A DNA stretch of 64,000 nt, taken from the NCBI RefSeq assembly GCF_001463885.1, contig NZ_BBWQ01000022.1, positions 1 through 64,000 of the forward strand, in the 5' to 3' direction. This document shows, in pieces, positions 22,616-59,904 of the stretch. The DNA is from Aureimonas altamirensis (GTDB taxonomy: Bacteria > Pseudomonadota > Alphaproteobacteria > Rhizobiales > Rhizobiaceae). The notes below the pieces were generated by a model that ran no database searches, was not told where the DNA came from, and saw only the letters and a list, made by a program, of their open reading frames with translations. Positions within the stretch are counted from its first letter, which is position 1. Every line of letters starts with the position of its first letter. The translations under genes and the position numbers were made by a program.

Positions 22616-22619
22616 CCGC

Positions 22620-27674: not shown

Positions 27675-28360
27675 TGGCTCATCTCCCGCGACCATGAAAT
27701 TGCGTTGATGTAGATTCCCAGCGGATTGGCGCGTAATCGTTCGGCATCGCGCGGGGGCTGGATCACGACAGTCAGGATCGCGGTCCATCGCTCGGTCGTG
27801 GAAAGCTGGCCGTTCTCGAAATGGCGTTCGGTCCAGGCGACGCGGAAACTGTCCGGCGAAGCCCGGATGACGCTCGACACCTCGACGGCGATCTGCTGGC
27901 GGCCGACCTTGGTGAAGGGATCGTTGGCCCGCGCATAATCGTTCAAGGCCGCCGCGCCCCGGTCGGTGGTGAACTCGTAAGCCCGAAGCCAGTTCTGCCG
28001 GACGATGATCGCGTCCGCCGGGATCGCGCGGACCTGCTCGATGAAGCGGCCGAGATGGAAGGCGATCTGCGGATCGGTCGGGCGATAATCGGCGTTCGCG
28101 GGCGCGACAGCCTGCGCCTGACCGAGATTGTCCACCTGCACCACCCAGGGCACGACGGTTCCACGCGCCGATTGCCAGACGAGCGCGGCGGCAAAGCCGG
28201 CCGAGAGGATCAGACAGCCGAACGCCATATAGCGCCAGTTCTTCGCCTGCACGCGGGCCGAGCCGATGCGTTCGTCCCAGACCTGTGCGGCTTTTTGATA
28301 GGGAGTCTCGGGTTCCGGCACCTTGCCGTAATGGGTCGTCGGTCGTTTGAAGATGTTCAT
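27671..28360 (-). CDS. trbF: Conjugal transfer protein TrbF (VirB8-like)
   Basis: 229 residues with one N-terminal membrane helix (YMAFGCLILSAGFAAALVW) and a periplasmic NTF2-like VirB8 domain (NDYARANDPFTKVG, WTAILTVVIQPP). VirB8-type assembly factor in the inner membrane. Four-base overlaps with trbG and trbL. Confidence 0.92.
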   Translation of the reverse strand: MNIFKRPTTHYGKVPEPETPYQKAAQVWDERIGSARVQAKNWRYMAFGCLILSAGFAAALVWQSARGTVVPWVVQVDNLGQAQAVAPANADYRPTDPQIAFHLGRFIEQVRAIPADAIIVRQNWLRAYEFTTDRGAAALNDYARANDPFTKVGRQQIAVEVSSVIRASPDSFRVAWTERHFENGQLSTTERWTAILTVVIQPPRDAERLRANPLGIYINAISWSREMSQ

Positions 28361-29715
28361 GTGCGGTCACTTTCGGAAAGGCTGACGGAGGAGCCGCCGC
28401 CGTGGCTGTCGCCGGATCGGACAGCATGAGCAGCAGCCGTGACGCCGTGGCTCATGGCCCGGCCACGCCGCATCTGCTGCGCCCAGGCCGGCGGCCCATC
28501 AGGGGTTGAGGGGGTTGACGGCGCAGGCGACGAATCTCTGCCGACGGTGCCCATGGTCGACGTGCCGCCGGATGCCGCGAATCCGGCTTTCGCACCATCG
28601 GAATAGCTGGATTTCAGGCTGTCGCTGGCGCGGGAGGCGGCGCGCTTGAGTGGTGAAACGGCGGCGGAGGCTCCGGCGCGCGCCACACCGCCAAGGCCGG
28701 AGGCGACCCCGGCCGTGCCGGACCCGCCCAAGGAGCCGAGGGTATAGGCGGACGAAGCCGCACCGGCGGCCGAGGCACCGCCGCGGGCAAGTGCTGCCCC
28801 GCCCGAGAGTGCGGCTGCGCCACCCCGCGCCGCGAGCATGGTCGCGCCACCGGCTGCGATCGCAGCGCCGCCAACCGCAAGGCCAGTCCCGACGGCGGCG
28901 CCGGCACTGAGTTGCGGGCCTCCGGAGACGAGGCCGGTGGCGATGCCGGGGCCGAAGATGCCGAGGCCGAGAAGGGAAAGGGCTGCCAGCACGATCGCCA
29001 TGGCGTCGTCGATTGTCGGGGTCGCACCGCCGAAGCCTGCGGTAAACTGGCCGAAGAGCGTGGAGCCGATGCCGATGATGACGGCGAGGACCAGCACCTT
29101 GATACCGCTGGAGATCACATTGCCCAGCACCCGCTCGGCCATGAAGGCGGTCTTGCCGAACAGGCCGAATGGAATCAGCACGAAGCCGGCCAGCGTGGTC
29201 AGCTTGAACTCGATCAGCGTGACGAAAAGCTGGATTGCCAGGATGAAAAAGGCCAGCACCACCAGCGCCCAGGCGAACAACAGGCACGCGATCTGGATGA
29301 AGTTCTCGAAGAAGGCGATCCAGCCCATCAGGTCCGAAATAGATTCCAGCAGCGGGCGACCGGCGTCCAGCCCGGTTTGGGCAACGCGGCCGGGGCGCAG
29401 CAGATCGGCAACCGAGAAGCCAGTGCCGGACGCCATGAGCCCGAGCCCGGCGAAGCTCTCGAAGACGATCCGTGCGAGATTGTTCCAGTTGCTGATGAGA
29501 TAGGCGAAGACGCCGACGAACAGCGTCTTTTTCACCAACCGCGCAATGATGTCGCCGTCGGCGCCCCAGGCCCAGAACAGTGCGGCGAGCGTCACGTCGA
29601 TGACGATCAGCGTCGTGGCGATAAACGCCACCTCGCCGCCGAGCAGGCCGAAGCCGGAGTCGATATAGCTGGTGAAGATGCCGAGAAAATTATCGATGAC
29701 CCCCGTTCCGCCCAT
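28357..29715 (-). CDS. trbL: Conjugal transfer protein TrbL (VirB6-like)
   Basis: 452 residues. The first 290 contain about six membrane helices typical of VirB6/TrbL (e.g. FILAIQLFVTLIEFKLTTLA). The rest is a low-complexity Gly/Ala/Ser-rich tail (GGAALARGGASAAGAASSAY), common in TrbL. Forms part of the inner-membrane translocation pore. Confidence 0.92.
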   Translation of the reverse strand: MGGTGVIDNFLGIFTSYIDSGFGLLGGEVAFIATTLIVIDVTLAALFWAWGADGDIIARLVKKTLFVGVFAYLISNWNNLARIVFESFAGLGLMASGTGFSVADLLRPGRVAQTGLDAGRPLLESISDLMGWIAFFENFIQIACLLFAWALVVLAFFILAIQLFVTLIEFKLTTLAGFVLIPFGLFGKTAFMAERVLGNVISSGIKVLVLAVIIGIGSTLFGQFTAGFGGATPTIDDAMAIVLAALSLLGLGIFGPGIATGLVSGGPQLSAGAAVGTGLAVGGAAIAAGGATMLAARGGAAALSGGAALARGGASAAGAASSAYTLGSLGGSGTAGVASGLGGVARAGASAAVSPLKRAASRASDSLKSSYSDGAKAGFAASGGTSTMGTVGRDSSPAPSTPSTPDGPPAWAQQMRRGRAMSHGVTAAAHAVRSGDSHGGGSSVSLSESDRT

Positions 29716-29718
29716 GGC

Positions 29719-30006
29719 TCACGGTCTCCCGTTCTGTGCGGGGGTCGCTGGCGCGGGTGTCTTGCCGAGGAAGCGATCGCGGGTCTCGGCCCAGGTTCGG
29801 AGGCAGTCGGCATCATTGGCCGCCGCCTCGCCCAATGCCTGGCAACGCCGCTGTTCCAGACGCAGCGGATCGGTGGCGGGCTGAAGCGCTGGGACGGAAG
29901 GTGCTGGCGCGGGGCCTTCCTCACGCGACATCTCGATGATCGCCGCCGTGATGGCCACGGCCACGAACACAATGGCCGCGATCCGGGCCAGCACCTTCCC
30001 CTCCAT
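29719..30006 (-). CDS. TrbK-alt, putative entry-exclusion protein
   Basis: 95 residues with one N-terminal membrane segment (IAAIVFVAVAITAAIIEM) and a small periplasmic domain with two Cys (EQRRCQALG ... DADCLRTWAETRDRFLG). This is the TrbK-alt family placed between trbJ and trbL. It is thought to be an entry-exclusion factor by analogy with TrbK, though it lacks the TrbK lipobox. Confidence 0.85.
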   Translation of the reverse strand: MEGKVLARIAAIVFVAVAITAAIIEMSREEGPAPAPSVPALQPATDPLRLEQRRCQALGEAAANDADCLRTWAETRDRFLGKTPAPATPAQNGRP

Positions 30007-30022
30007 ACTCCGCCTCCTTTCC

Positions 30023-30805
30023 TCAGTTGAACATTCGCGCGTTGCCGGGCTGATAGCCTGACCCCGGCGTCAGGAAACGCTCGCGCTGAATGCGTCCCTG
30101 TTCGGCTGCCGTGGCGCGTTCGGCCTCGGTCAAGGCATTCGCCCGGCCATTGGCCGAGATGACAGCGATCAGGTCCGAAAGCTGCTGCGACTGGAGGGCG
30201 AGAAGCTGGTTGCCAGCCTGGGTCGCCTGAAGCGCGCCGGTCGCCCCCTGGCTTTGGCCGACAAGCTCCGACATTTGCGTGCGATTGCTGTCGATATTGC
30301 CGACGACGCCGGCCTGGACGCGCATGGCGTCCTGCAGGCCGCCGACGGTGTTTTCCCAGCGCGAGCGCGCATCGGCGATCATCTGGGTGTCGGTCGCGGT
30401 CAAAGACAGCTTGCCGTAGTCCTGCTGGAACATCTGATCGATGTTCTGAACGTCGAACGCAATGTTCTGGGCCTGCCCGAGAAGCTGCTGGGTCCGCTGG
30501 ACGTTCTGCTGAAGCGCCTGAAGCGAGCTGTGAGGCAGGCTCGCGAGATTGCGGGCCTGGTTGATCAGCATCTGCGCCTCGTTCTGAAGCGAGGTGATCT
30601 GGTTGTTGATCTGCTCCAGCGTACGGGCGGCGGTCAGCAGATTCTCCGCGTGGTTGGTCGGATCATAGACGATCCGGCCGAACCCGCCGAAGAAGGCATG
30701 GGCCGGGGTGATGAAGTCCGGCGCGAGCGCCAGCGGCGCGGCAAGCGAAAGGGCGAGCGCCGAAGCGCTGGCCATGCGGGAAATCCGGGTCTTTGTGCGC
30801 GTCAT
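30023..30805 (-). CDS. trbJ: Conjugal transfer protein TrbJ (VirB5-like)
   Basis: 260 residues with a signal peptide (ASALALSLAAPLALAPDFI) and long coiled-coil helices (TLEQINNQITSLQNEAQML; QQNVQRTQQLLGQAQNI). VirB5-type minor pilus component. Four-base overlap with trbE. Confidence 0.92.
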   Translation of the reverse strand: MTRTKTRISRMASASALALSLAAPLALAPDFITPAHAFFGGFGRIVYDPTNHAENLLTAARTLEQINNQITSLQNEAQMLINQARNLASLPHSSLQALQQNVQRTQQLLGQAQNIAFDVQNIDQMFQQDYGKLSLTATDTQMIADARSRWENTVGGLQDAMRVQAGVVGNIDSNRTQMSELVGQSQGATGALQATQAGNQLLALQSQQLSDLIAVISANGRANALTEAERATAAEQGRIQRERFLTPGSGYQPGNARMFN

Positions 30806-33324
30806 GGGGTACTTTCCTCTTCTTCCAGGGTGAGCTCGAACGCGTCCTCATCGAAAATGACGGACGGCAGATCCTCGCTTTCGGTCGCGAGATTGCTGAG
30901 GTCCGGGATCAGTTCTGCGGCCCATTCGACGCCACGCGCCTTGAGCCAGGCGGCGAGGAACCCGTCGCGGCCATGCTCGGTGAGGATTTCGCTGATCAGG
31001 GCCTGATCGGATTTGGCCGATGCGGCGCAAAGCGCCAGCCCGACTTCCGACAATCCGAGGTCAAACAGGCGGTTGCCGCGCCGCGACTGGCAGTAGTAGT
31101 CCCGCTTGGGCGTGGCCCGTGCGAGGATCTCGATCTGCCTGTCATTGAGGCCGAAACGGCGATAGATCGCGGTGATCTGGGGTTCGATGGCGCGCTCGTT
31201 GGGCAGCAACAGCCGCGTTGGGCAGCTTTCGATGATCGCCGGCGCGATGGCTGAATTGTCGATGTCGGACAGTGACTGCGTGGCGAAGATGACGCTGGCG
31301 TTCTTCTTTCGCAGGGTTTTGAGCCATTCCCTGAGTTGGTCCGCGAAGCCTTCGTCGTCGAGCGCCAGCCAGCCCTCGTCGATGATCAGCAGCGTGGGCC
31401 ACCCGTCTAGCCGGTCGCCGATGCGGTGGAAGAGATAAGAGAGGACCGCGGGCGCCGCGCCGGTCCCGACAAGGCCCTCGATTTCGAATGCCTGCACGTC
31501 TGCTGAACCAAGATGTTCGGTCTCCGCATCGAGCAGCCGGCCATAGGGACCACCGACGCAATAGGCGCGGAGCGCCTGTTTCAGATCATTCGACTGGAGC
31601 AGCACGGCGAGGCCGGTGATGGTGCGTTCCCCGACCGGGGCGGAGGCGAGCGAGGTCAGGGCCGTCCAGATGTGCTCCTTCACCTCCGGGGTGATCTGGA
31701 TGTTCTCGCGCGTCAGGATCGCCACGATCCAGTCGGCGGCCCAGGCGCGTTCGGCCGTCTCGTGAATGCGCGCCAGAGGTTGCAGCGAGACGGATGTTTC
31801 GGAAGCGTCGGTCAGCTCGCCACCAAGATCGTGCCAGTCACCTTGCATCGCGAGGGCGCAGGCCCGGATCGAGCCGCCGAAATCGAAGGCAAAGACCTGT
31901 GAGCGCGCGTAGCGCCGGAACTGCAAGGCCATTAGCGCCAGCAGCACCGATTTGCCGGCACCCGTCGGCCCGACGACAAGCGTATGGCCGACATCGCCGA
32001 CATGGAGGGAAAACCGGAACGGGGTCGATCCTTCGGTCCTGCCATACAGCAGCGGGGGCGCGCCGAAGTGATCGTCCCGTTCCGGTCCCGCCCACACGGC
32101 GGACGAAGGGACCATGTGGGCAAGGTTGAGCGTCGAGACCGGCGGTTGCCGGACATTCGCATAGGCATGTCCGGGCAAGCTGCCGAGCCAGGCGTCGACG
32201 GCGTTGACCGTTTCGACCATGACGCTGAAATCGCGGGACTGGATGATCTTCTCGACCAGCCGCAGCTTTTCGTCGGCGCGGCGGGCGTCCTCGTCCCAAA
32301 CGGTGACGGTCGCCGTGACATAGGCCATGCCCGCCATGTCGGCGCCAAGTTCCTGCAGGGCCATGTCGGCATCGGCCGCCTTGTTGGCGGCGTCGGTGTC
32401 GACGAGCGCGGATTGCTCGTTGGTCATCACCTCTTTCAGGATGGCGGCAATCGACTTGCGCTTGGCGAACCACTGGCGCCTGATCTTCGTCAGCAGCCGG
32501 GTCGCATCGGTCTTGTCCATGAGGATGGCGCGGGTCGACCAGCGATAGGGAAAGGCCAACCGGTTCATTTCGTCGAGCAGGCCGGGGGTGGTGGTTGCCG
32601 GAAAGCCGGTGATCGTCAGCACCCGGAGATGCTGATTGCCCAGGCGCGGCTCCAGCCCGCCGGTCAGCGGCTGATCGGCCAGCAGCGCATCGAGATAGGT
32701 CGGGGTTTCGGGCACGCGGACGCGATGCCGGTTGATCGAAATCGTCGAATGCAGGTAAGTCAGCGTCCCGGCGTCATCGAGCCAGCGGCATTCCGGCATA
32801 AAACCGTCGAGCAGCGCCAGCACGCGGTCGGTGCGGTCGGCAAAGCCGCGCACCAGTTCCCAAGGGTTCACGCTCGACGTTTCGCGGCCCTCGTAAAGCC
32901 AGGACTCGGAGCGGGCGGCATCCTCGGCGGGCGGAAGCCAGAGGAAGGTCAGGAAATAGCCAGAGACGAAATGGCTGCCTTTCTCCTCGAAATCGGCCTT
33001 GCGCTCGGCATCGACCAGCGCCGATGCGGGATCGGGGAAGCGGCTCGCCGGATAGGTGGCGGCTTCCGACCGCTGTGCTTCGACGAAGATCGCCCAGCCG
33101 GAGCCGAGGCGACGGAAGGCATTGTTAAGGCGGCCAGCGACCGCGACCAGCTCGGCCGCGACGGCGGAATCCAGATCGGGACCGCGAAACTTCGCGGTGC
33201 GCTGGAACGAGCCGTCCTTGTTGAGGACAACGCCGAAGCCGACCAGCGCTACCCAGGGAAGGTAATCGGCGAGGCGGGATGCGGTACGGCGGTATTCGGC
33301 GAGATTCATCATGGGCTTCCTCAC
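30802..33324 (-). CDS. trbE: Conjugal transfer ATPase TrbE (VirB4-like)
   Basis: 840 residues, VirB4-class ATPase energising pilus assembly. Walker A is GPTGAGKSVLLA, Walker B is LLIIDEGWLAL, and the C-terminal motif FATQSLSDIDNS is conserved. GTG 33324 overlaps the trbD stop as GTGA; ATG 33312 is the alternative start. Confidence 0.95.
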   Translation of the reverse strand: MRKPMMNLAEYRRTASRLADYLPWVALVGFGVVLNKDGSFQRTAKFRGPDLDSAVAAELVAVAGRLNNAFRRLGSGWAIFVEAQRSEAATYPASRFPDPASALVDAERKADFEEKGSHFVSGYFLTFLWLPPAEDAARSESWLYEGRETSSVNPWELVRGFADRTDRVLALLDGFMPECRWLDDAGTLTYLHSTISINRHRVRVPETPTYLDALLADQPLTGGLEPRLGNQHLRVLTITGFPATTTPGLLDEMNRLAFPYRWSTRAILMDKTDATRLLTKIRRQWFAKRKSIAAILKEVMTNEQSALVDTDAANKAADADMALQELGADMAGMAYVTATVTVWDEDARRADEKLRLVEKIIQSRDFSVMVETVNAVDAWLGSLPGHAYANVRQPPVSTLNLAHMVPSSAVWAGPERDDHFGAPPLLYGRTEGSTPFRFSLHVGDVGHTLVVGPTGAGKSVLLALMALQFRRYARSQVFAFDFGGSIRACALAMQGDWHDLGGELTDASETSVSLQPLARIHETAERAWAADWIVAILTRENIQITPEVKEHIWTALTSLASAPVGERTITGLAVLLQSNDLKQALRAYCVGGPYGRLLDAETEHLGSADVQAFEIEGLVGTGAAPAVLSYLFHRIGDRLDGWPTLLIIDEGWLALDDEGFADQLREWLKTLRKKNASVIFATQSLSDIDNSAIAPAIIESCPTRLLLPNERAIEPQITAIYRRFGLNDRQIEILARATPKRDYYCQSRRGNRLFDLGLSEVGLALCAASAKSDQALISEILTEHGRDGFLAAWLKARGVEWAAELIPDLSNLATESEDLPSVIFDEDAFELTLEEEESTP

Positions 33325-33602
33325 ACCGAAAGATGACCGGGGATGCGGAGGTGGCGGCGCGCGACCTCGACGAAGAGCGGATCGCGCTTGGCGGCCCAGA
33401 CGGCGGCGATGTGACCGACGGCCCAGATCAGGATGCCGGCCAGCCAGAGCTGGAGGCCGAGGCCCACGGCTCCGGCCAGCGTGCCATTGAGGATCGCGAC
33501 GGAGCGTGGCGCTCCGCCAAGCAGGATCGGTTCGGTCAGGGCGCGGTGAACCGGCACACTGAATCCCGGAACCGCGTCGAGCGCCTCGAAACTCACCGCC
33601 AT
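33321..33602 (-). CDS. trbD: Conjugal transfer protein TrbD (VirB3-like)
   Basis: 93 residues with a VirB3-type N-terminus (VPVHRALTEPILLGGAPR) and two membrane helices. Inner-membrane partner of TrbE. The start shares its first base with the trbC stop. Confidence 0.92.
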   Translation of the reverse strand: MAVSFEALDAVPGFSVPVHRALTEPILLGGAPRSVAILNGTLAGAVGLGLQLWLAGILIWAVGHIAAVWAAKRDPLFVEVARRHLRIPGHLSV

Positions 33603-33931
33603 CAGACCAGCGCTCCGCCGCCGAAGCTGAAGAACGAGAGGAAGAAGCTGGACGCCGCGAAGGCGATGGAGATACCGAAGACGATCTGGATGAGGCGACG
33701 GAAGCCGCCGCCGGTATCGCCGAATGCGAGCGTCAGGCCGGTGACGATGATGATGATCACTGCCACGATCTTGGCCACCGGGCCTTCGACGGATTCAAGG
33801 ATGGATTGCAGCGGCGCTTCCCAGGGCATGGAGGAGCCAGACGCTTGGGCGGGGGCAGTCATCAGGCTCGCCCAGGTGAAGGCGGCGGCGGTCGCCAGAT
33901 GATGACGGATACGAACGGCGCAACGGATCAT
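33602..33931 (-). CDS. trbC: Conjugal transfer pilin TrbC (VirB2-like)
   Basis: 109 residues: long signal peptide ending ...TAPAQASG, then two hydrophobic helices (IVAVIIIIVTGLTLAFG; FGISIAFAASSFFLSFF) as in VirB2/TrbC prepilins, which are cyclised in IncP-type systems by a TraF peptidase such as that at 54117-54662. Four-base overlap with trbB. Confidence 0.92.
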   Translation of the reverse strand: MIRCAVRIRHHLATAAAFTWASLMTAPAQASGSSMPWEAPLQSILESVEGPVAKIVAVIIIIVTGLTLAFGDTGGGFRRLIQIVFGISIAFAASSFFLSFFSFGGGALV

Positions 33932-34926
33932 GCAGGTTCTCCTGGAACGTGAGGGATTGAGGTGTCGGGAAAAGCGAGGGAAATCCGGTAATCGCCGTCG
34001 GGGCCGAGCCCTTCGACGCAGGCAAGTTCGGCCAGCCGGCGCGCGGAGCCGCGGCCAGCGAGGACGGCCACGAGGTCGATGGTCTCCGCGATCATCGCGC
34101 GCGGCACAGTGACGACGGCTTCCTGGATGAGTTGTTCGAGGCGGCGCAGGGCGCCGATGCCGGAACCAGCATGGATGGTGCCGATGCCGCCCGGATGGCC
34201 GGTGCCCCAGGCTTTGAGGAGATCGAGCGCCTCGGCGCCGCGCACCTCACCGATCGGAATGCGGTCCGGACGCAGGCGCAGCGAAGACCGCACCAGTTCC
34301 GACAAGGTGGCGACACCATCCTTGGTGCGCATCGCCACGAGATTCGACGCTGCGCATTGCAGTTCGCGGGTGTCCTCGATGATGACGACCCGATCCTGCG
34401 TCTTCGCCACCTCGGCGAGCAGCGCATTGGTCAGCGTCGTTTTACCGGTGGACGTGCCGCCTGCGACAAGGATGTTGGCGCGGGACGCGACGGCCGCGCG
34501 GAGCGTTTCCGCCTGATCGGCGGACATGATGCCGGCGGCCACATAGTCGTCTAGCGTGAATACTGCGACCGCGGGCTTGCGGATGGCGAAGGCGGGTGCG
34601 GACACGACCGGCGGCAGCAACCCCTCGAAGCGCTCGCCGGTTTCGGGCAGTTCGGCCGAGACGCGCGGGCTGCGCGCATGGACTTCGACGCCGACATGGT
34701 GGGCGACCAGCCGCACGATGCGCTCACCGTCAGCGGCGGACAGTATTTCGCCCGTATCGGCCAACCCTTCGGACAGCCGGTCCACCCAGATGCGTCCGTC
34801 CGGGTTCAGCATGACCTCGACGACAGACGGGTCTTGCAGCAGGGTTGAGATGGCAGGCCCGAGCGCTGTCCGGAGCATGCGCGCGCCGCGGTCCACATTT
34901 GCCTGTTTGTGGTTGATGCCTGGCAT
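33928..34926 (-). CDS. trbB: Conjugal transfer ATPase TrbB (VirB11-like)
   Basis: 332 residues, VirB11-class hexameric ATPase. N-terminal domain followed by Walker [13 protein letters not shown], Asp box [10 protein letters not shown] and Walker B/His box region [19 protein letters not shown] with [11 protein letters not shown]. First gene of the trb operon. Its promoter must lie in the 34927-35350 region, where inverted repeats occur. Confidence 0.95.
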
Positions 34927-37122: not shown

Positions 37123-37154
37123 CAATGTCACATCGGGAAAGTCGAGGTGACATC

Positions 37155-41084: not shown

Positions 41085-41827
41085 TGGAGTTCTCCAGTAT
41101 CGGAATAGCGACGGCTTTCGCCGCAGGTGTCGTATCCTTCCTGTCGCCCTGCGTCCTTCCGCTGGTGCCGGGCTATATCTCCTACGTCGCAGGCCGCACG
41201 ATTAGCCCGGATGGCACTGCGGCCGATGCCGAATTCAAGGCGGCAAGCCGAACTCTCGGCCTCAGCCTCTGCTTCGTGCTCGGCTTTACGACCGTGTTCG
41301 TCCTCCTTGGGGCCAGCGCAACCGTGTTGAGCCGGCTCCTGCGCATGTATCTTTTCGAAGCGAACCTGATCGGAGGCGTAATCGTCGTCCTCTTCGGTCT
41401 GTTCACGACAGGCCTCGTACCAATGCCCTGGCTCAATCGTGAAGCGCGGTTCCATGCCAATCCGGGCAGCGGAAGCGCCGGCGCGGCTTATCTCCTCGGT
41501 CTCGCTTTCGCGTTCGGCTGGACTCCCTGCATCGGACCAGTGCTGGGCGCGATTCTGACCCTGTCCGCCGCCAACGCCACGGTCGCAAGCGGAACGACGC
41601 TGCTCGCCGTCTACTCGCTCGGCCTTGGCCTCCCTTTCATCTTGGCCGCTTTGTTCATGCGCGGGTTCATGGCGCGGATGATGTCGATGCGCCGTACTGG
41701 CCGGGTGCTCAAAATCGTCGCTGGTGGGGTGATGGTGGTGATGGGCATCGCCATGATCACCGGCCATCTAACCAGCTTTGCGATATGGCTGCTCCAGACT
41801 TTCCCGGCCCTCGGCCGGATCGGCTAA
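41084..41827 (+). CDS. CcdA-family disulfide-reducing membrane protein
   Basis: 247 residues, six membrane helices of the CcdA/DsbD-beta type. FLSPCVLPLVPGYISYV and GWTPCIGPVLGAIL hold the reactive Cys pair. Moves reducing power from cytoplasmic thioredoxin to periplasmic partners such as SCO or PCuAC. Its ATG overlaps the SCO stop (TGATG). Confidence 0.88.
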   Translation: MEFSSIGIATAFAAGVVSFLSPCVLPLVPGYISYVAGRTISPDGTAADAEFKAASRTLGLSLCFVLGFTTVFVLLGASATVLSRLLRMYLFEANLIGGVIVVLFGLFTTGLVPMPWLNREARFHANPGSGSAGAAYLLGLAFAFGWTPCIGPVLGAILTLSAANATVASGTTLLAVYSLGLGLPFILAALFMRGFMARMMSMRRTGRVLKIVAGGVMVVMGIAMITGHLTSFAIWLLQTFPALGRIG

Positions 41828-48952: not shown

Positions 48953-50938
48953 CTACAGCTCCATGCCGTCGTTCGGGTCCATGGCAACCTGCCGGGCAAT
49001 GCCCTGCACCTGGCGGATCATGCGCCGATTTTGCATGGCCTCTTCCTCAACTTCATCGGGCGGCGCGATCTCGAATTCGTTCTCGAGGGGCTTTTTCTTC
49101 TCCACGGGCTTTACGCGGCTGAGTTCAGGCTGCAATCGGCGTTCGGATTCGGTCGGATCTTCGTCATTGGTTCTCTGGTCGCCGTGATCCGTGGCGCCTT
49201 CCGGTCGCGCCGGGATCGGAAGCTTGGTCCAGTCGTCGGGCCGCGTTTCTTCGGGACCTTTCAATTCAGGCGGTGACAGAACGCGCTCGCGAAACCGGGC
49301 GTCCTCGTAATAGCGCGCCTTCGTCGCCCGGATCGGGGGGATGCCCGCCACCATGACGATCTCCTCATGTGGGGGAAGCTGCATGATCTCGCCCGGCGTC
49401 AGCAACTGGCGCGCGGTTTCCGAGCGCGAGACCATAAGGTGCCCGAGCCAGGGCGACAGGCGATGGCCGGCATAGTTCTTCATCGCCTTCATCTCGGTGG
49501 CGGTGCCGAGCGCATCCGACACCCGTTTCGCCGTGCGCTCGTCGTTGGTGGCGAAGCTGACGCGGACATGGCAGTTGTCGAGGATCGAGTTGTTCGGCCC
49601 GTAGGCTTTCTCGATCTGGTTCAGCGACTGCGCGATCAGGAATGATTTCAGACCGTAGCCGGCCATGAAAGCCAGCGCGGTCTCGAAGAAATCGAGCCTG
49701 CCCAGCGCCGGAAACTCGTCCAGCATCAGAAGGAGCCGATGCCGCCCGGCGTTCGCCTGCAGGTCTTCGGTCAGGCGACGGCCGATCTGATTGAGCAGCA
49801 ATCGCATCAGCGGCTTGGTGCGGTTGATGTCGGAGGGCGGCACGACGAGGTAAAGCGTGACCGGCTGATCGCCTCCCACAATATCGCTGATGCGCCAGTC
49901 GGAGCGGCGTGTGACTTCGGCCACGACCGGATCGCGATACAGGCCGAGAAACGACATCGCCGTCGACAACACGCCGCTGCGCTCGTTCTCGGACTTGTTG
50001 CGCAGCTCGCGCGCGGCGCTGGCAACGACCGGGTGCGGCCCCGCTTCGCCCAGATGCGCGGTCTTCATCATGGCGCGCAACGTGGAATCCACCGGGCGCT
50101 TCGGATCGGACAGGAATTTGGCCACACCTGCCAGGGTCTTGTCGGGTTCGGCGTAAAGCACATGCAGGATGGCGCCCACCAGCAGCGAATGGCTGGTCTT
50201 TTCCCAATGGTTGCGCTTGTCGAGACTGCCTTCCGGATCGACGAGGATGTCGGCGATGTTCTGGACGTCGCGCACCTCCCACTCGCCGCGGCGCACTTCC
50301 AGCAGCGGATTGTAGGCCGAGGATTTCGGGTTGGTCGGGTCGAAGAGCAGCACGCGGCCGTGCTGCGAGCGGAAGCCGGAGGTGAGCTGCCAGTTCTCAC
50401 CCTTGATGTCGTGGACGATGGCCGACCCCGGCCAGGTCAGCAGCGACGGGACGACGAGGCCGACGCCTTTGCCCGAACGTGTCGGGGCAAAGCACAGGAC
50501 ATGCTCCGGCCCGTCATGGCGTAGATAGTCCTTCTCGTAACGGCCGAGAACAACACCATCGGGATCGAGCAGGCCCGCCGCCTTGATCTCTCCTTTCCCG
50601 GCCCATCGCGCCGAGCCATAGGTGGCGACGTTTTTCGCCTCGCGCGCCCGCCAGACCGACATGCCGATGGCGACGGCAATGGCGATGAAGCCGCCCGATG
50701 CCGCGATGATCCCGCCCTTGGCGAAGATCGGCGGCGCATAGGCTTCGTAGAAATACCACCACCAGAAGATCGCGGGCGGATAATAGATCGGCACGCCGAA
50801 CATCACGAACCAGGGCGGCCCGAGTTGCGCCTGATAACCGAGGCTCGAGGCGACATACTGGGTCGCGCCCCAGGTGGTGGCGAGGATGATGAGGAAGACG
50901 ATGGTGATCTGTCCCCAGAGGATCTTGGTCGCGGACAT
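48953..50938 (-). CDS. traG: Type IV coupling protein TraG (VirD4-like)
   Basis: 661 residues. Two or three N-terminal membrane helices, Walker A APTRSGKGVGLVVPS, and Walker B LLMLDEFPALGRLD. Brings the relaxase-DNA complex to the TrbBCDEFGIJL channel. Upstream relaxase gene on the same strand, 24 bp away. Confidence 0.94.
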   Translation of the reverse strand: MSATKILWGQITIVFLIILATTWGATQYVASSLGYQAQLGPPWFVMFGVPIYYPPAIFWWWYFYEAYAPPIFAKGGIIAASGGFIAIAVAIGMSVWRAREAKNVATYGSARWAGKGEIKAAGLLDPDGVVLGRYEKDYLRHDGPEHVLCFAPTRSGKGVGLVVPSLLTWPGSAIVHDIKGENWQLTSGFRSQHGRVLLFDPTNPKSSAYNPLLEVRRGEWEVRDVQNIADILVDPEGSLDKRNHWEKTSHSLLVGAILHVLYAEPDKTLAGVAKFLSDPKRPVDSTLRAMMKTAHLGEAGPHPVVASAARELRNKSENERSGVLSTAMSFLGLYRDPVVAEVTRRSDWRISDIVGGDQPVTLYLVVPPSDINRTKPLMRLLLNQIGRRLTEDLQANAGRHRLLLMLDEFPALGRLDFFETALAFMAGYGLKSFLIAQSLNQIEKAYGPNNSILDNCHVRVSFATNDERTAKRVSDALGTATEMKAMKNYAGHRLSPWLGHLMVSRSETARQLLTPGEIMQLPPHEEIVMVAGIPPIRATKARYYEDARFRERVLSPPELKGPEETRPDDWTKLPIPARPEGATDHGDQRTNDEDPTESERRLQPELSRVKPVEKKKPLENEFEIAPPDEVEEEAMQNRRMIRQVQGIARQVAMDPNDGMEL

Positions 50939-50962: not shown

Positions 50963-52702
50963 CTAAAGGCCGAGGGAGCGCTTGCGCCCGAAGTCCCAAT
51001 CTACGCCGCCATCATCGCGGGCTACGCCGGAGACGTGACGGCCGATCTGTTTTTCGAGAGAGGGCGACCAGGGCACGAGCTGGAAGCCGAGGCCGTCGTC
51101 GATCATGGCGAAGCGGCCGGAGGCGAGCGCGAAACGCTGGCGATAGGAGCCGGCGACATATTCGCCGCTGGCTGCGCGCTCGAAGGACATGCCGGTCTCG
51201 GTTGCGAGCTTCTCGCCGAGGTTGTCGAGTTCGCGTTGGCGCAAGGTGCTGAGCAGCCGGCGCGCGAAGACGACGCGACCGCCCTGCCGCTCGGCAAAGC
51301 CCTCGCCGATCAGATGTTCAGCGCGTTCGTCCAGAGCCTGACGGACCTCAGCGCCGAAACCGCTGTCCGACAGCGCGATCGGATCGCGGGCGATGGCCTG
51401 CCGGTCGAGCCAGGTCGCGCCCGAGGCGCCGACTTGCGCACCAAGATCGAGATCGGCGCGGACGGCGAGCGCGACGCGGCGCTGCCCCTGCGGGTCCTCC
51501 CAGGATCGCAACTCGACGATGGAACCGGGCGGACTGTCGCCGGCGGCGTCGAGATGCGGCAGCTTGATGTGATGGGTCCGCCCGTCGGTGCCGTCGACCA
51601 CGGCATAAGCGGTGCCCTTCAACTCGTCGTCGAGGCCGCGCTCGACCAGGCGGCCGATGACGGGAACGTCAAGGCTTTCGCCGGCGAGGACATAGCTGGC
51701 CGAGCCGCGTTCGATGCCGCGTTCGGTCAGGGCACGGTGCATGCGCTTGATGATGTCGCCGCGCTCGCCCAGTTCACGCAGGACCGCTTCGGCTTCGGGC
51801 TTGATGAACCATTGCGAGAGGCCGATCTCTTCGGCAAGCCCGCGGATTTCAAGGGTTCGCAGCCGCCCCACCTTCAGAGTATGAAACTCGTCCGGCTGGC
51901 GGTCGGGAAGCGGGGCAAGGTCGATGATGCCGGACTTGCCGGCGTCGCGCACAAGCTGCCGGTCGAGCTGCGTCCAGCGTTCCGCCTCGACCTGCCGCTC
52001 CAGATTGCGGTGGATCTCCAGATCGGTGCGGGGCCCGAGTTCCTGCGTGACCAGATCCTGCGCACGGGCGCGCATGCCCTCCTTGATGTAGTCGCGGGAA
52101 ATCACCAGGTCCTGGCCATCGTCGGTGCGGCCGCGCAGGATGATATGGATATGGGGATTGTCGGTGTTCCAGTGATCGACGGCGACCCAATCGAGGCGCG
52201 TGCCGAGATCCTTCTCCATCTGCCCCATCAGCTCGCGGGCGTGATCCTTCAGATTGGCCATGTCCACCGCGTCTTCGGGCGAGACGATGAAGCGGAAATG
52301 ATGCCTGTCGTCCTGGCACTTTTCCGCGAAAGCGCCGACATCCATGTCGTCCCTTTCCGGGCCGAACATCCGCGCCTTTTCCCCGTCGCGGGTCACGCCA
52401 TCGCGGCGCAGATAATTAAGGTGTGCGCCGAGCGGAGCCGAGCGTGCCGTTTGGCGAACCACGCGGGTCTTGATGACGGCGATGCGCGAGCGTCCGGTGA
52501 GAAGCCGGTTGGCCTGGATGCTGGCGCGCTGACCGCGCCCGAAGCGTGAGCGGTTGCCCGAGGTGATCTTGCCGGAGCGCGAGACGCGTCCGCCGGCTTT
52601 CTGGGCGGCGGCGAGCGCCTGGGCGACAAAGGGCCTCGCCTGTTGCGCGCGGGTCGAGCGGATACGGCCCGGACGGATGCGGAACTCGTTGTCATCGGAC
52701 AT
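50963..52702 (-). CDS. Conjugative relaxase (VirD2/RlxS-like, DUF3363)
   Basis: 579 residues. The N-terminal relaxase domain has the metal-binding HxH triad region DNPHIHIILRG and a candidate catalytic Tyr in HLNYLRRDG. The C-terminal half is DUF3363. Nicks oriT and leads the transferred strand. The GCACSGTGC palindromes 10-140 bp upstream mark a candidate nic/oriT. Start MSDDNEF at 52702 has an appropriate upstream sequence; GTG/ATG further up lies in the palindromes. Confidence 0.9.
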   Translation of the reverse strand: MSDDNEFRIRPGRIRSTRAQQARPFVAQALAAAQKAGGRVSRSGKITSGNRSRFGRGQRASIQANRLLTGRSRIAVIKTRVVRQTARSAPLGAHLNYLRRDGVTRDGEKARMFGPERDDMDVGAFAEKCQDDRHHFRFIVSPEDAVDMANLKDHARELMGQMEKDLGTRLDWVAVDHWNTDNPHIHIILRGRTDDGQDLVISRDYIKEGMRARAQDLVTQELGPRTDLEIHRNLERQVEAERWTQLDRQLVRDAGKSGIIDLAPLPDRQPDEFHTLKVGRLRTLEIRGLAEEIGLSQWFIKPEAEAVLRELGERGDIIKRMHRALTERGIERGSASYVLAGESLDVPVIGRLVERGLDDELKGTAYAVVDGTDGRTHHIKLPHLDAAGDSPPGSIVELRSWEDPQGQRRVALAVRADLDLGAQVGASGATWLDRQAIARDPIALSDSGFGAEVRQALDERAEHLIGEGFAERQGGRVVFARRLLSTLRQRELDNLGEKLATETGMSFERAASGEYVAGSYRQRFALASGRFAMIDDGLGFQLVPWSPSLEKQIGRHVSGVARDDGGVDWDFGRKRSLGL

Positions 52703-52713
52703 GGGGCGCCCCC

Positions 52714-52842
52714 GCACGGTGCAAATCATCAAGGAAAATCAGGAAGAGGAGCGCGCAGCGCACGGTGCGCGCCAGCGCCGCACGGTGCGGGACGCGCCGG
52801 AAACCTGAACAAAAACAACCGCCCGCCACAGCCGCACCGTGC
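52714..52842. other. Candidate oriT or relaxase-operon operator
   Basis: Between the transglycosylase and relaxase genes are four copies of GCAC(G/C)GTGC starting at 52714, 52760, 52780 and 52834, two of them extended palindromes (CCGCACGGTGCGG, GCCGCACCGTGCGGC). A further copy lies at 55739 in the methylase gene. Position beside the relaxase gene suggests oriT or autoregulation. Confidence 0.5.
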
Positions 52843-54116: not shown

Positions 54117-54662
54117 TCACCGCATCGGCGCGCGCCAGACAAAGCGGCCCTCGCCGTCTTCGTCGGTGAAAAGCGGGATCGCGTGGCCGATCACCGCCGA
54201 GGCGGGGAACGGGCCGAAATAGCGGCCGTCGAGGCTGTCGCCGACGTCCGGGTTCATCAGGAACACTTCGCCCTCGGCGATGACGCGACAGCCCTGCCAG
54301 ACCGGCAGGTCTCGGCCGAAGCTGTCGTGGTCGCGCGCCTCGCCGAGCGGAACGCCGTCGACGATAATGGCGCGGCCATCGCGGCACAGGCGCTGTCCGG
54401 GCAGGCCGAGAACGTGCTTCAGAAGCGGCACGTCGCGTGCGACGTAGCCGCGCTCGACCATAAACGAGGCGAAGGGTTCGGGTGGGATGACGGCGACCAG
54501 ATCGGGCACCGCGATCCGGTCGTCGGGTGCGACAGTATAGAACCCGATCGGCACGCTGGCCGATGCGTTCCAGACCAGCCTTGGCGCAGTCGGAACGAAT
54601 CCGGCAAAGGCGATCCCGAGCGTGGCAACCGTCGTCACCATGACATAGCGAAAGCGCGTCAT
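54117..54662 (-). CDS. traF: S26-family signal peptidase TraF
   Basis: 181 residues: one N-terminal membrane helix, catalytic Ser36 in NASASVPIGFY and Lys82 in PLLKHVLGLPGQ. TraF in IncP plasmids processes and cyclises the TrbC pilin, whose gene is here at 33602. Four-base overlap with the DUF2840 gene. Confidence 0.9.
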   Translation of the reverse strand: MTRFRYVMVTTVATLGIAFAGFVPTAPRLVWNASASVPIGFYTVAPDDRIAVPDLVAVIPPEPFASFMVERGYVARDVPLLKHVLGLPGQRLCRDGRAIIVDGVPLGEARDHDSFGRDLPVWQGCRVIAEGEVFLMNPDVGDSLDGRYFGPFPASAVIGHAIPLFTDEDGEGRFVWRAPMR

Positions 54663-55144
54663 GGGGCGATCTCCCGCCGCCAGAGCCATGCCTGATGACG
54701 CTCCGCGGTGTAGGGACGCGGCGCTTCGCCTGCGTTTATCCAGTGGGAGACGTGCCGCCAATGATCGGGATCGACTTGGGCCGGATCGACACCTATGGCC
54801 TCGATCCCGTCGACATGGCGAAGGACAGCCTCGACCTTCGGCCAGCCTTCGATCTTCAGCAGGATTTCGCCGCCTGGACGGACGAAGGGCAGCGTCTGAT
54901 AGGACTGGCCCGGCGCAACCGCGCGCAGGATGTCGAGGCGCGAAATGATCGTGCCGTGGTCGTTCGCCGCCCAGCGGACGAACGCAAACACCGTGCCGGG
55001 ATGGAAGAATACAACACGCCGGTTGCGATCGAGGATCTGCTCACCAGTCGCATGGCCGAATCTGATCCAGTATTCGGTCTTGCCTTCCACCCAGGTCAGT
55101 TCCGCGCGGGTCAGATCGCCGTCATGGGCGTCGATGCCGATCAT
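54659..55144 (-). CDS. DUF2840 protein
   Basis: 161 residues (HPGTVFAFVRWAANDHGT; GWPKVEAVLRHVDGIEAIGVDPAQVDP). DUF2840 sits in tra regions between parA and traF in many elements. No function known. Linked by 4-bp overlaps on both sides. Confidence 0.85.
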   Translation of the reverse strand: MIGIDAHDGDLTRAELTWVEGKTEYWIRFGHATGEQILDRNRRVVFFHPGTVFAFVRWAANDHGTIISRLDILRAVAPGQSYQTLPFVRPGGEILLKIEGWPKVEAVLRHVDGIEAIGVDPAQVDPDHWRHVSHWINAGEAPRPYTAERHQAWLWRREIAP

Positions 55145-56135: not shown

Positions 56136-56785
56136 GCCGATACCCTCCCGATCCCCAGCAGGCCGATCTCGGCGGCCAGGGCGGCAATCTCGCGCGCGGC
56201 GGGTGATCGGCGCCCGATCTCGCGGACGAGCCGCCCGGTCTGCGCGGCGTCGGCGAAGACGACGCGCTGGCCGATGGCGCTGGTGAGCACGGGAGGATCG
56301 TGGTCCGCCAGCGTCTCGGCGGTCTCGCGGGCGATGACGGTGCGGGCACCGCAGCGGTTGAGCACGAAGCGGGCAACGAGCTGGGGCCGGTAGATGCGCG
56401 CCTCCGCCAGGAGGGCGAGCATCTCCGCCGAAGCCCAGCCGTCGAACGGCGATGGCTGCACCGGGATCAGCACGAGATCGGCGGCGAGCAGCGCGGAGCG
56501 CATGAGGCCGGCGACGCGCGGTGGCCCGTCGATGACGATGCGATCGACATCGCGGGCGAGTTCGGGCGCTTCGCGATGCAGCGTGTCGCGGGCCAGGCCA
56601 ACGGTGCCGAAGGCGCGTGGCAGGCCCTCACGCGCGCGTTGTTGCGACCAGTCGAGGGCGGAGCCTTGCGGATCGGCGTCGATCAGGGTGACGCGCTTGC
56701 CACCCTGAGCCAGTTCACCGGCAAGATGCAGCGCCAGCGTCGTCTTGCCGACACCGCCCTTCTGGTTGAGGAGCGCGATGATCAT
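56132..56785 (-). CDS. parA: ParA-family partition ATPase
   Basis: 217 residues, deviant Walker A LNQKGGVGKTTLALHL, Walker A' VIDGPPRVAG. ATPase for segregation of the replicated or excised element. ATG 56785 overlaps the repA stop; no clear parB follows, though the RHH protein may serve. Confidence 0.92.
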   Translation of the reverse strand: MIIALLNQKGGVGKTTLALHLAGELAQGGKRVTLIDADPQGSALDWSQQRAREGLPRAFGTVGLARDTLHREAPELARDVDRIVIDGPPRVAGLMRSALLAADLVLIPVQPSPFDGWASAEMLALLAEARIYRPQLVARFVLNRCGARTVIARETAETLADHDPPVLTSAIGQRVVFADAAQTGRLVREIGRRSPAAREIAALAAEIGLLGIGRVSA

Positions 56786-57957
56786 TTGCACCCCCCCGGC
56801 AGATCGAGAGGCAGGCGGGGTCTTTCTGCAGATTCAGGAGCCTCGGTTGCGCCTCGATCAGATGCCGGTCGAGGCGATGCCGGGGCGTCGGATGCCCTCT
56901 TCTTAGCGGCTCTACCAAGGCTTCTGGCGGTGTCGCGGATGAGGTTTTCCACATCGCGCGCGCGCTCTTCAAAGTTAGACTCTTTGTTAGACTCTAAGTT
57001 AAGGGCGCGATTTCCTGAATGGGTTCCGGGTGTTAAGCCCGGTTTCGGTTCCTGATAGCACGAGCCTCCGGTTCCCGATAGCACGATAGTCCGGGTTCCT
57101 GATAGCACGAGGCCATCCACAGGTTTTCCACAGGGCGCGACCGGCTCGAAGGCCAGCAGCATCCGCCCGCCAACCTCAGCTTCGAGAAACAGCGAATAGC
57201 CCGGCAGAGGCTGGCGCCGGATGATGTCGCGCAGCTCGAAGGCGAAGCGCTTGAACGGCGACAGGCTGCCGGATTTCTGGTGAAGGTGACGGAAATCGAA
57301 CCGCCAGCCATCGCGCTGGCGGCCGCCGTGCTTGCGCACCAGGCGGTAGAGCCAGCGGTCGAGGCCGCCGGTGAGATCGAAATAGGTCCGGTCGATGGTC
57401 AGCACGAGCGCATCGTCGAGGACGGCTTGGTAGAACCAGTCCGGCACGATCATCTCGATGCCGTCGGGTCGGCCGTTGCGGTCGGTGCGCTCCTGCCATT
57501 CGTTGATCCACGAGAAACGATGACGGCGGCCTTCGGTCGGCTGGCGGATCGAGGTGGAAATCGTGGTCGATTGCAGCCGGTCGAGCGCCGCCTTCAGCCG
57601 CTGGTAGTCGCGAAGCGACGTGCCGCGCCCGACATAGGTGAGAATCTCATAGGGCGTGGCGGCCATCAGCCGGGAGGTGCGAAGCCCGGCATCGCGGGCT
57701 TCGACGATCTGGCTCGCGGCCCAGATCAGGATGTCGGCGTCCCAGATCGTGGCCATGCCATGATCGGGAACCGCCTCGACCCGGATGGTCACGCTGCCGG
57801 CAGCGAAGTCGATGGGCGCGATGCGCTTCGACTTGGCGAGGGAGAAGAAGGGATAGGCCATGAGATCCTGCGCGTCTCGTGGCGCGAAGTCGCCGGGGAG
57901 CGCCCGGAACAGGTCGAGCTGCCCGCGCTCAGAAAGGGATCGGCGTCGCACCGTCAT
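56782..57957 (-). CDS. repA: Replication initiator RepA
   Basis: 391 residues of the plasmid RepA initiator type (SLAKSKRIAPIDFAAGSVTI; RDYQRLKAALDRLQSTTIST). The C-terminal part is low-complexity and its DNA carries iteron-like repeats and DnaA-box-like sites. Replication could occur after excision or as a plasmid. Four-base overlap with parA. Confidence 0.9.
   Translation of the reverse strand: MTVRRRSLSERGQLDLFRALPGDFAPRDAQDLMAYPFFSLAKSKRIAPIDFAAGSVTIRVEAVPDHGMATIWDADILIWAASQIVEARDAGLRTSRLMAATPYEILTYVGRGTSLRDYQRLKAALDRLQSTTISTSIRQPTEGRRHRFSWINEWQERTDRNGRPDGIEMIVPDWFYQAVLDDALVLTIDRTYFDLTGGLDRWLYRLVRKHGGRQRDGWRFDFRHLHQKSGSLSPFKRFAFELRDIIRRQPLPGYSLFLEAEVGGRMLLAFEPVAPCGKPVDGLVLSGTRTIVLSGTGGSCYQEPKPGLTPGTHSGNRALNLESNKESNFEERARDVENLIRDTARSLGRAAKKRASDAPASPRPASDRGATEAPESAERPRLPLDLPGGCK
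57047..57110 (-). repeat. Three iteron-like repeats within repA
   Basis: GGTTCC(T/C)GATAGCACGA occurs at 57047, 57070 and 57094 (plus-strand writing), 23 and 24 bp apart. DnaA-box-like TTTTCCACA lies at 56945 and 57124. Suggests a replication origin inside the initiator gene. Confidence 0.6.
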
Positions 57958-57975: not shown

Positions 57976-58257
57976 TCAGCGGGCGTAACGACCGGCCTGC
58001 GGGCCGGACGGAAGCGACTGACGCTTGGCGGGCAGCACTGAGCCACGCGGATCGGAGGTGGAGGTCACCGCGCCGCGCTCGGTCCAGGCCTCGAGATCGT
58101 CGATGGCATAGACCACACGGCCGCCGAGCTTGCGATAGGCAGGCCCGGTTCCGTAGGTGCGGTGCTTTTCGAGGGTCCGGGCCGAGAGGCTGAGAAAGGT
58201 CGCGGCCTCCTTGGTCCGTAGAAAACGCGGCGGCAGGACGACGGGTTCATGTGGCAT
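57976..58257 (-). CDS. rdfS: AlpA/RdfS-like excisionase or DNA-binding protein
   Basis: 93 residues with a winged-helix MerR/Xis-type motif (RFLRTKEAATFLSLSARTLE) and GGRVVYAIDDLEAWTERG. AlpA-like proteins here are recombination directionality factors; RdfS of ICEMlSymR7A is such a protein, activated by FseA. An fseA-like gene lies immediately upstream. The name is tentative. Confidence 0.65.
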   Translation of the reverse strand: MPHEPVVLPPRFLRTKEAATFLSLSARTLEKHRTYGTGPAYRKLGGRVVYAIDDLEAWTERGAVTSTSDPRGSVLPAKRQSLPSGPQAGRYAR

Positions 58258-58396
58258 GATCGGGCCTCCGTGGGGTTGCAAGCGGCCGCTGCGGATCAGC
58301 GGCGGGCAATGACCACGGTGGCGCAGGAAGAGCGGCGAGTTGCAGGGCGAAGTTGGGGGGTATCGAAATCGCCCACCATCAGGGCAAAGGATCGCG

Positions 58397-59168
58397 TTAT
58401 CGTGGGCGGCGATGACGAAGGAGTTTCCGATAACCGCCGGCGACCATGGAACGGGCGTCGCGCAGGAGTGCCTTGATGGCATGACGGGCCGAGGACGCCT
58501 GCCATTCGTCCCGCTCAAGCCGGCCGGTGTTCAGAAGAACCCGCGCGATCTCCTGCTGCGTGACGCCGGCCCGATGGCCATCGAAGGCCCGCAGCATCCG
58601 TCGGAGGCGTGCGCGTTGCTGGCGTGTCAGGCGCGTATCCGGCGGGATCGCGCGACCATGCAGGGCCGAAAGGAAGCGTTGAATGGCCTCGATCCGGTCG
58701 AAACCGGCGAGGCTGAGAGGGACGATGGCGACCGCGATCGCGTCCCCCTTGATGGCACCGTCGAAAATCTGGAGCTTCTGCCCGTTGCCGAGCGGAAAGT
58801 GAAACTCCGCACCTGCATTCTCGACCGCGTAGTCGATGCGCCAGTTCTGCGGAGTGACGTCAGCGCTGTCGCCAAGTTCCGAAGGGACCCCGGTCAGCAC
58901 CACCACACTTGTGTCCTCCGCCGGGAGCCAAAAGACCGGCGCATCGGGTGGCGGGACCAACGGATCGACAGGGAAATCGCAACCCCCATCGCTGCCGGAT
59001 CCGTTCGGTCAGCGGTTGGGGGTCTCCATGGTCGGCAATTGAGGCTTCAAAATCTGCGTCATAATCGTCATTGCGGCGCAGCCATTCCCAGGCCAGATCG
59101 GATGCCGTCAGTTCATCCAGATGGTCGTATTGCGCCGACGAACGCCAAGTCGATGCGTCAGGGGTCAT
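58397..59168 (-). CDS. fseA: DUF6499-DUF2285 regulator split by +1 frame (FseA-like)
   Basis: Two reading frames form one protein. The first frame (59168-58971, 66 residues) is a DUF6499-type domain (MTPDASTWRSSAQYDHLDEL ... WGLRFP). The second frame (58969-58397, 190 residues) is a DUF2285 domain (TRQQRARLRRMLRAFDG ... MVAGGYRKLL). The join is at CCC-T (58973-58970) where skipping the T restores frame. In ICEMlSymR7A FseA is made in this way by programmed +1 ribosomal frameshifting and activates rdfS, which here is the next gene downstream. Either the gene is frameshifted by design or it has mutated; single-frame homologues also exist. Confidence 0.75.
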
Positions 59169-59280: not shown

Positions 59281-59556
59281 TCAGGAATTGCGCTGGCTTT
59301 CGCGGACCAGCTCGCGGTAGCCGTGTTCGGTCATCCAGTGCGCGCGGGCGAGGTGAGCGTCATGGATGGACCGGCAATGCTCGGGGTCATGTTCGGGATC
59401 GAGGCCAAAGAGAACCTGCACAGCTTCGCGCCAATCGGCGCCATCACGCTCGGCATCGAGCAGGCGCATGTAGAGTTTCATATGCTCGCGATCATAGGAC
59501 GTCAGCGTCTGGCTGGACGGTGGCTTGTCGAGGAAAGTCTGTGTCGGGCGTCCCAT
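59281..59556 (-). CDS. Single-domain DUF2285 protein (QseM-like antiactivator candidate)
   Basis: 91 residues: LYMRLLDAERDGADWREAVQ, VLFGLDPEHD and HLARAHWMTEHGYRELV show the same pattern as the DUF2285 half of the FseA-like protein (RMLRAFDGHRAGVTQQEIA ... GYRKLL). In ICEMlSymR7A a small DUF2285 protein, QseM, blocks FseA and TraR by binding. The role here is inferred by domain and position. Confidence 0.6.
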   Translation of the reverse strand: MGRPTQTFLDKPPSSQTLTSYDREHMKLYMRLLDAERDGADWREAVQVLFGLDPEHDPEHCRSIHDAHLARAHWMTEHGYRELVRESQRNS

Positions 59557-59652
59557 CATTCGCTCACGTTTGGGTAACGTATTTGTTAACCATCTTCGGC
59601 GGAAGACAGCCATTCCTTTTGACGAGAACCTGACATCACGCTGGCCGCTGTT

Positions 59653-59904
59653 TCACCGTTTGTCGGTGTTGACCGTATCGTGTTGCAGCAACACGCCCTC
59701 GCCCTTATCCGTCGACAAGAAAACGATCCCGGCCGCTTCGAGAGCGCGGCGCACCTGGTCGCGGGTGGACTCGAACACCTCGAGCCCGCTTTGGGATTCG
59801 AGGCGTTTGAGTGCGGTCAATGCGACCTGGGCCTTGTCGGCGAGCGTCTCCTGTGTCCATCCCAGTAACGCGCGCGCAGCCCGAGATTGGCGAGCGGTGA
59901 TCAT
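59653..59904 (-). CDS. XRE-family helix-turn-helix regulator (QseC-like candidate)
   Basis: 83 residues with an HTH (GWTQETLADKAQVALTALKR) and a short tail. XRE protein next to a single-domain DUF2285 gene parallels qseC-qseM of ICEMlSymR7A, though there the two are divergent, here both face the same way. Probably controls excision or transfer gene expression. Confidence 0.7.
   Translation of the reverse strand: MITARQSRAARALLGWTQETLADKAQVALTALKRLESQSGLEVFESTRDQVRRALEAAGIVFLSTDKGEGVLLQHDTVNTDKR

Follow-up and report, generated by a model that had tools for sequence, protein, structure and literature searches.

Within the 64,000-nucleotide stretch of Aureimonas altamirensis DNA analyzed here (hereafter, the window), two adjacent minus-strand reading frames, encoding a DUF6499 and a DUF2285 domain, very probably specify one protein, the activator FseA, which would be produced by a +1 shift of the translating ribosome. 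Provided that FseA is made in this way, comparison with relatives suggests that the slip is probably that of a tRNA-Phe moving from UUU to UUC. The gene content, the two frames, the conservation of the site and an inverted repeat in front of the neighboring gene were observed directly. The locus is an addition to the FseA family, whose members are activators of ICEs and in which programmed +1 frameshifting has already been published.

The DUF6499 frame (59168-58971) and the DUF2285 frame (58969-58397) stand in a +1 relation to each other next to a WGL motif, as is characteristic of the FseA family. The former matches PF20109 over 59168-58971 (E 7.4e-25) and contains the sequence AWEWLRRN, which is similar to the AWEFLRRN motif of the family; the latter matches PF10074, the C-terminal DUF2285 domain, over 58969-58400 (E 8.5e-33) and stays open as far as 58397. 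When the DUF2285 frame was compared with PDB sequences, no match emerged at E up to 1. The 0-frame context of the junction is CGG CAG CGA TGG GGG TTG CGA TTT CCC TGT, where TGG occupies 58988-58986 and is followed by GGG, TTG, CGA (58979-58977), TTT (58976-58974), CCC (58973-58971) and T 58970, after which the minus strand continues with GTC GAT CCG. The earlier note proposed that the frames join when T 58970 is skipped after CCC. The joining itself stands, as does the +1 relation of the DUF6499 and DUF2285 frames, which is confirmed by the sequence, by Pfam and by relatives (see below); T 58970 as the necessary base does not, since the removal of any single base of TTTCCCT (58976-58970) yields the same R-F-P-V-D peptide. 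It follows that the window alone is unable to tell which base is skipped.

The 772 bp between 58397 and 59168 are unchanged in two other genomes (G005, locus L003; G012, locus L004, within L044, Aureimonas altamirensis). Two Paracoccus contigs (L041 and L048) have the identical 120-bp junction as well. The frame break is therefore not a sequencing error, which contradicts the possibility, raised in the earlier note, that the extra T could be one. The presence of an identical fseA in two genomes of the genus and of an identical junction in Paracoccus indicates recent spread across genera. Of 16 genomes whose rpoB was compared with that of the window's genome, the one with L044 (A. altamirensis) is the nearest, at 95% identity, ahead of the runner-up at 85%, and Aureimonas is very likely the host.

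Table 1. Features of the window related to the FseA-like locus and to the element that carries it.
Feature	Position	Strand	Basis or remark
0-frame ORF, N-terminal part of FseA	58860..59168	-	ATG 59168, through the junction, to stop 58860; DUF6499 (PF20109) as far as 58971 and 36 out-of-frame codons beyond; 102 aa if unslipped
UGGGGG (W-G), putative internal Shine-Dalgarno-like stimulator	58983..58988	-	GGG usage and anti-Shine-Dalgarno duplex energy
CGA preceding the slip codon	58977..58979	-	CGA usage among Arg codons of split and unsplit loci
TTTCCCT slip region	58970..58976	-	UUU-C (58976-58973) is the likely slip; sequence and relatives
+1 frame, C-terminal part of FseA	58397..58969	-	Central region plus DUF2285 (PF10074), the DNA-binding domain
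FseA-box-like inverted repeat GGCGAT-N16-TTCGCC	58346..58373	-	Repeat scan; between fseA and the rdfS-like gene
rdfS-like recombination directionality factor (HTH_17)	57976..58257	-	PF12728 E 2.6e-9; PDB 8dgl RdfS E 2.3e-10
QseM-like antiactivator, DUF2285 alone	59281..59613	-	PF10074 E 8e-9; PDB 7uqt QseM E 1.6e-18
HTH_3 regulator at the place of qseC, weak	59653..59904	-	22.1 bits (cut-off 23); TIGR03070 26.3 bits (cut-off 71.65)
RepA-like replication initiator, downstream of rdfS	56782..57957	-	Profile match
TraF-like signal peptidase	54117..54761	-	TraF_Ti 89 bits, below cut-off 100.25
RlxS-like relaxase	50963..52732	-	594.6 bits, below model cut-off 850
TraG coupling protein	48953..50938	-	Profile match
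trb conjugation genes (TrbI, TrbG/CagX, TrbL, TrbE-like, TrbB-like)	25522..34926	-	ORF limits mechanical

The genes around the split locus, together with the two Pfam matches and the frame relation, support its identification as an FseA-like gene. The ORF downstream resembles the solved RdfS structure, in agreement with the RdfS-like neighbor proposed in the earlier note, and of the 142 distinct split loci, 116 are followed by such a gene, the other 26 being without an rdfS-like match that has a start. The protein encoded upstream contains DUF2285 without DUF6499 and resembles solved QseM. The whole group sits in a conjugation region that also encodes an RlxS-like relaxase, TraG, a TraF-like protein and the trb products. 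The trb genes are flanked, at 5638-23675 and 37125-41824 of the window, by metal-related cargo (P-type ATPases, cation efflux, multicopper oxidase and DsbD-like proteins). In R7A, FseA is under the control of TraR and AHL. A search of the genome with the Autoind_synth profile gave no AHL synthase match, but the control was equally silent; one Autoind_bind gene was found on another contig of the genome.

The inverted repeat between fseA and the rdfS-like gene resembles the FseA box in inversion and spacing, its hexamers being 16 bp apart. The published box, as described in the text of PMC10359603, consists of two inverted hexamers 15-16 bp apart, the gene-proximal one being located 62-67 bases ahead of the start codon, nearer than in the window, where the distance exceeds that of the published logo. 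Strict repeats were present in 43, and loose ones in 55, of 112 distinct regions upstream of rdfS-like genes, while simulated sequences gave on average 0.05 strict and 0.135 loose matches, with a maximum of 2. The strict repeats have their 5′ end 113-117 bp ahead of the start codon (ca. 117 bp in the window). Even the loose repeat was absent from 57 of the 112 upstream regions. A second FseA-box-like match lies at 51139-51166, inside the relaxase ORF and with TraG downstream; it could be due to chance.

To compare the junction with those of relatives, 224 loci were classified, namely, the best 80 of at least 567 confirmed in a scan of genome contigs and 144 from further genomes. A DUF6499 match was found in 222 of them (all except L035 and L190), and removal of duplicates, judged on the first 300 bp, left 194 distinct loci, the window's included. 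The two frames are split and in a +1 relation in 142 of the 194, joined in a single frame in 46 and in another relation in one, while five lack a DUF2285 match; the frame break is thus conserved among homologues. Codons were counted in 140 split and 40 single-frame loci, two split and six unsplit ones having been dropped because they have no W motif; the five loci without a DUF2285 match and L124, the one in another frame, were also excluded. The sample tilts toward near kin of the window's locus, and as a guard against this bias, separate counts were made for representatives with less than 60% identity (52 split, 17 unsplit). One family is strongly represented in the unsplit set.

Several loci of this set deserve separate mention. 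L124 has a usual-looking +1 junction, yet its DUF2285 lies in the third frame, owing to either a later frame change or an assembly error. L121 has the usual site, but a stop precedes the opening of its +1 DUF2285 frame (overlap -159), and it is possibly a decayed copy. In L136, L025 and L039, the two frames overlap by 804, 708 and 708 bases, respectively, so that annotation may choose the wrong long ORF. The 0-frame tail past the slip codon has a median length of 18 codons, vs 25 in the third frame (140 loci, p 0.024), a weak difference that was not used as evidence.

The fourth codon past the W is TTT in 135 of 140 split loci, and in one more (L029), TTT is displaced by one codon. All 135 Phe codons at the site are TTT, while elsewhere in the same genes, TTT accounts for 209 of 874; in single-frame homologues, TTT occupies that codon in 0/40 loci and in 0/3 of those that have Phe there. 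TTT is followed by C in 130 and by T in 5 of the 135 loci, as tRNA-Phe re-pairing on UUY requires, and UUU could thus slip to UUY every time. The next codon is CCC in 90/140 and CGC in 33/140 split loci, and its third base is C in 130/140, while the base that follows is free. When the sequences past TTTC are read in the +1 frame, the same positions encode Pro (90/135) or Ala (34/135) with a free third base. Site-by-site entropy of 135 aligned loci likewise revealed that the wobble position switches, and +1 codon periodicity begins, directly past TTTC, which implies that the codon after TTT would be read by ribosomes that have shifted before reaching it. Among the 52 diverse split representatives, counts were 49/49 for TTT, 27/30 for CGA and 35/51 for GGG.

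TTT is missing both from the site and from the places next to it in four of the 140 split loci. The codon pairs are CGA TGT in L179 and L183, which together with L181 (AAG TAT) belong to one family, and CGG TGT in L018. tRNA-Cys and tRNA-Tyr are unable to re-pair at these TGT and TAT codons, and the exceptions may represent a different slip or decay. In the single-frame homologues L009 and L158, TTT is found one codon further along; TTT near WGL alone is therefore no mark of shifting.

The codons ahead of TTT are biased as well. The Gly of WGL is encoded by GGG in 95 of 129 split loci, as opposed to 256 of 2000 Gly codons elsewhere in those genes and 6/39 in unsplit loci; 9 of the 11 split loci without this Gly have AGG, which creates GGAGGU. 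The Leu is TTG or TTA in 103/133 split loci (449/3694 elsewhere), and in unsplit loci TTR (17/37) is likewise above its own background (172/1087). An Arg that precedes TTT is encoded by CGA in 106/112 split loci, vs 293/2954 (10%) elsewhere and 0/29 in unsplit loci. The calculated energy of the duplex between the anti-Shine-Dalgarno sequence and the 12 bases over WGLR is -8.48 in split loci, with a synonymous expectation of -5.34; in single-frame loci, the corresponding values are -5.50 and -5.48. In 62% of split but only 3% of unsplit loci, this pairing is among the strongest 5% of synonymous versions. As in prfB, the internal Shine-Dalgarno-like run is thus selected beyond coding, and the difference in synonymous codons between split and unsplit loci implies that the codons used here most likely matter for the shift rather than for the protein.

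The complete signal, [GA]GG-TTR-CGA-TTT, is not universal, being present in only 69 of the 140 split loci. Across 372 whole alphaproteobacterial genomes, among them that of the window, a strict motif, TGGRGGTTRCGATTTC, turned up at four places, all of them fseA loci with the +1 relation. In a draw of 385 genomes similar to that set, 24 have DUF6499 above the cut-off; judging from these numbers, most family members carry variants of the motif. The composite motif also matched viral contigs 22 times, with 0/22 matches adjoining DUF6499, and these were taken as chance. No conserved RNA structure was detected 3′ of the site in 52 representatives: the mean z of -0.17 resembled that of a control stretch further down (-0.20), and 3′ structure was rejected as a stimulator.

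An alternative location of the slip is CGA-U, where tRNA-Arg would sit on CGA and the next tRNA would take the overlapping +1 codon (UUC, or GUU, AUU or GUC in the exceptions) without any slippage on UUU. tRNA-Arg reads CGA through a weak I-A wobble pair, and the distance between the Shine-Dalgarno element and the slip codon of prfB is 3 nt, which would make CGA the P-site codon here; indeed, GGGGG is separated from CGA by 3 nt and from UUU by 6 nt. The strong preference for CGA in split loci described above also speaks for such a slip, and CGA is retained next to TGT in L179 and L183, so that two of the exceptions would be covered. However, 34 of the 140 split loci have a codon other than CGA, and in 22 of the 52 representatives the codon is not even one for Arg, whereas TTT is present in 49/52; besides, a move from CGA to GAU affords no re-pairing. 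We regard a slip at CGA-U as possible but unlikely. The earlier note favored CCC-U and tRNA-Pro. The window does have CCC-T, and a slip there would give an identical peptide, but CCC followed by T is found in just 22/140 split loci (the base after CCC is G in 42, T in 22, C in 17 and A in 9), CGC replaces CCC in the 33 loci noted above, and the fixed third base of this codon with a free base after it is the pattern of a +1 codon rather than of a slip codon, TTT being the constant element. CCC-U is accordingly very improbable and is not the family's slip codon. The comparative case against it appears solid; the choice of UUU-C over CGA-U is less certain.

Two further explanations dispense with the shift altogether. 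If the gene were decayed or misread, a single extra base would suffice to split it, and every copy is indeed split by one; yet, apart from the identical copies in other genomes, the +1 relation recurs in 142 of the 194 distinct loci, and coding periodicity is evident on both sides of the site in the 135 aligned loci, which leaves decay or error with a negligible probability. The DUF2285 frame could also be a separate, self-starting protein, the GGGGG run serving as its ribosome binding site. TTG 58960 is a possible start with a Shine-Dalgarno-like run upstream, but the run ends 22 nt ahead of it, and no ATG, GTG or TTG is present in the +1 frame 5-10 nt past the run. Since, moreover, the single-frame homologue L153 (WGLRFGADPD) fuses both domains at equal spacing, the existence of two independent proteins is highly unlikely.

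We infer the occurrence of the shift, its rate and the identity of the slipping tRNA from these comparisons, while the regulatory steps are carried over from ICEMlSymR7A. According to the preferred scheme, with the slip at UUU-C, the majority of ribosomes would keep to the 0 frame and yield only the short DUF6499 product. Within GGGGG-UUG-CGA-UUU-C, pairing would form between 16S rRNA and the internal Shine-Dalgarno-like run, and a small fraction of ribosomes would slip by +1 base as tRNA-Phe re-pairs from UUU to UUC, continuing in the +1 frame to make full FseA with both DUF6499 and DUF2285. FseA would then bind the inverted repeat and turn on rdfS, and RdfS would drive excision; the adjoining QseM-like protein would bind DUF6499 and restrain FseA.

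The proposed site shares with that of prfB (release factor 2) the +1 direction and an internal Shine-Dalgarno-like run a few nucleotides ahead of the slip codon. The prfB frameshift takes place on CUU with a stop codon in the A site and is autoregulated by release factor; the window has neither an A-site stop codon nor release-factor autoregulation, and its slip codon would be UUU (or CGA). The +1 site of influenza A PA-X is not known to have a Shine-Dalgarno element. Its sequence, UCC_UUU_CGU, also contains UUU followed by C (PMC3498833). The 33 split relatives with CGC past the slip codon resemble it, though PA-X is viral and read by the eukaryotic ribosome. Yersinia RovC is read in a single frame. 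It belongs to the same family by the Pfam name of PF10074 and is called a distant relative in the main text of PMC10359603, where it differs in being a regulator of a type VI secretion system.

The closest known counterpart is FseA of ICEMlSymR7A (msi172-msi171 of Mesorhizobium japonicum R7A), for which passages of PMC10359603 describe the same DUF6499 and DUF2285 domains in two frames with a +1 relation, UGGGGG encoding WG beside the site, an RdfS-like gene with an inverted-hexamer box, a DUF2285-only QseM-like protein and RlxS-, TraF-, TraG- and trb-like genes. The box of the window is further from the rdfS start than that of R7A (PMC10359603). Gene order also differs: in the window, fseA has the QseM-like gene immediately ahead of it and rdfS, then repA/parA, immediately after it, while in R7A, according to the text of PMC5882170, fseA comes after traI2, and rdfS shares an operon with traF. 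The same passages of PMC10359603 report that ca. 61% of 4709 FseA homologues need a +1 shift and remark on UGGGGG beside the site as a possible stall signal. Further support comes from passages of PMC5882170, PMC8627217, PMC5009743, PMC9601964 and PMC11963761; Azorhizobium rihF1b/rihF1a are stated to be without a shift in those of PMC9601964. The slip codon is not stated in the main-text passages of this literature; the UUU-C, CGA and Shine-Dalgarno-like details of the site may in part already be in print.

The residues of FseA bound by QseM form helices at positions 15-55, within DUF6499 (PMC10359603, main text). The unshifted product contains these helices and could therefore soak up QseM. 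One can thus imagine, although we consider it rather doubtful, that the unshifted DUF6499 protein is a QseM sink and that the frameshift ratio sets the amounts of activator and decoy made from one mRNA, with a prfB-like composite signal (UGG(G/A)GGUU, rare CGA and UUU-C) conserved among the mobile elements of alphaproteobacteria. Consistent with this, a search of 1 kb upstream revealed a QseM-like DUF2285-only gene within 900 bp of 109/138 split but only 1/45 single-frame loci. A quick tree of 161 of the 188 loci (those with a C piece of at least 70 aa) contained 2 contrasting pairs on supported branches and 9 on all branches; the link between the split state and a QseM-like neighbor is not established, as the tree lacks enough independent changes.

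The comparison yields a base-by-base prediction for the site, consisting of the Shine-Dalgarno-like run, TTR, CGA and UUU-Y, which can be tested with reporters and searched for by annotation pipelines. FseA governs excision and spread of the element, as demonstrated in print for R7A, and the element in the window would, in addition, carry its metal-related genes along.
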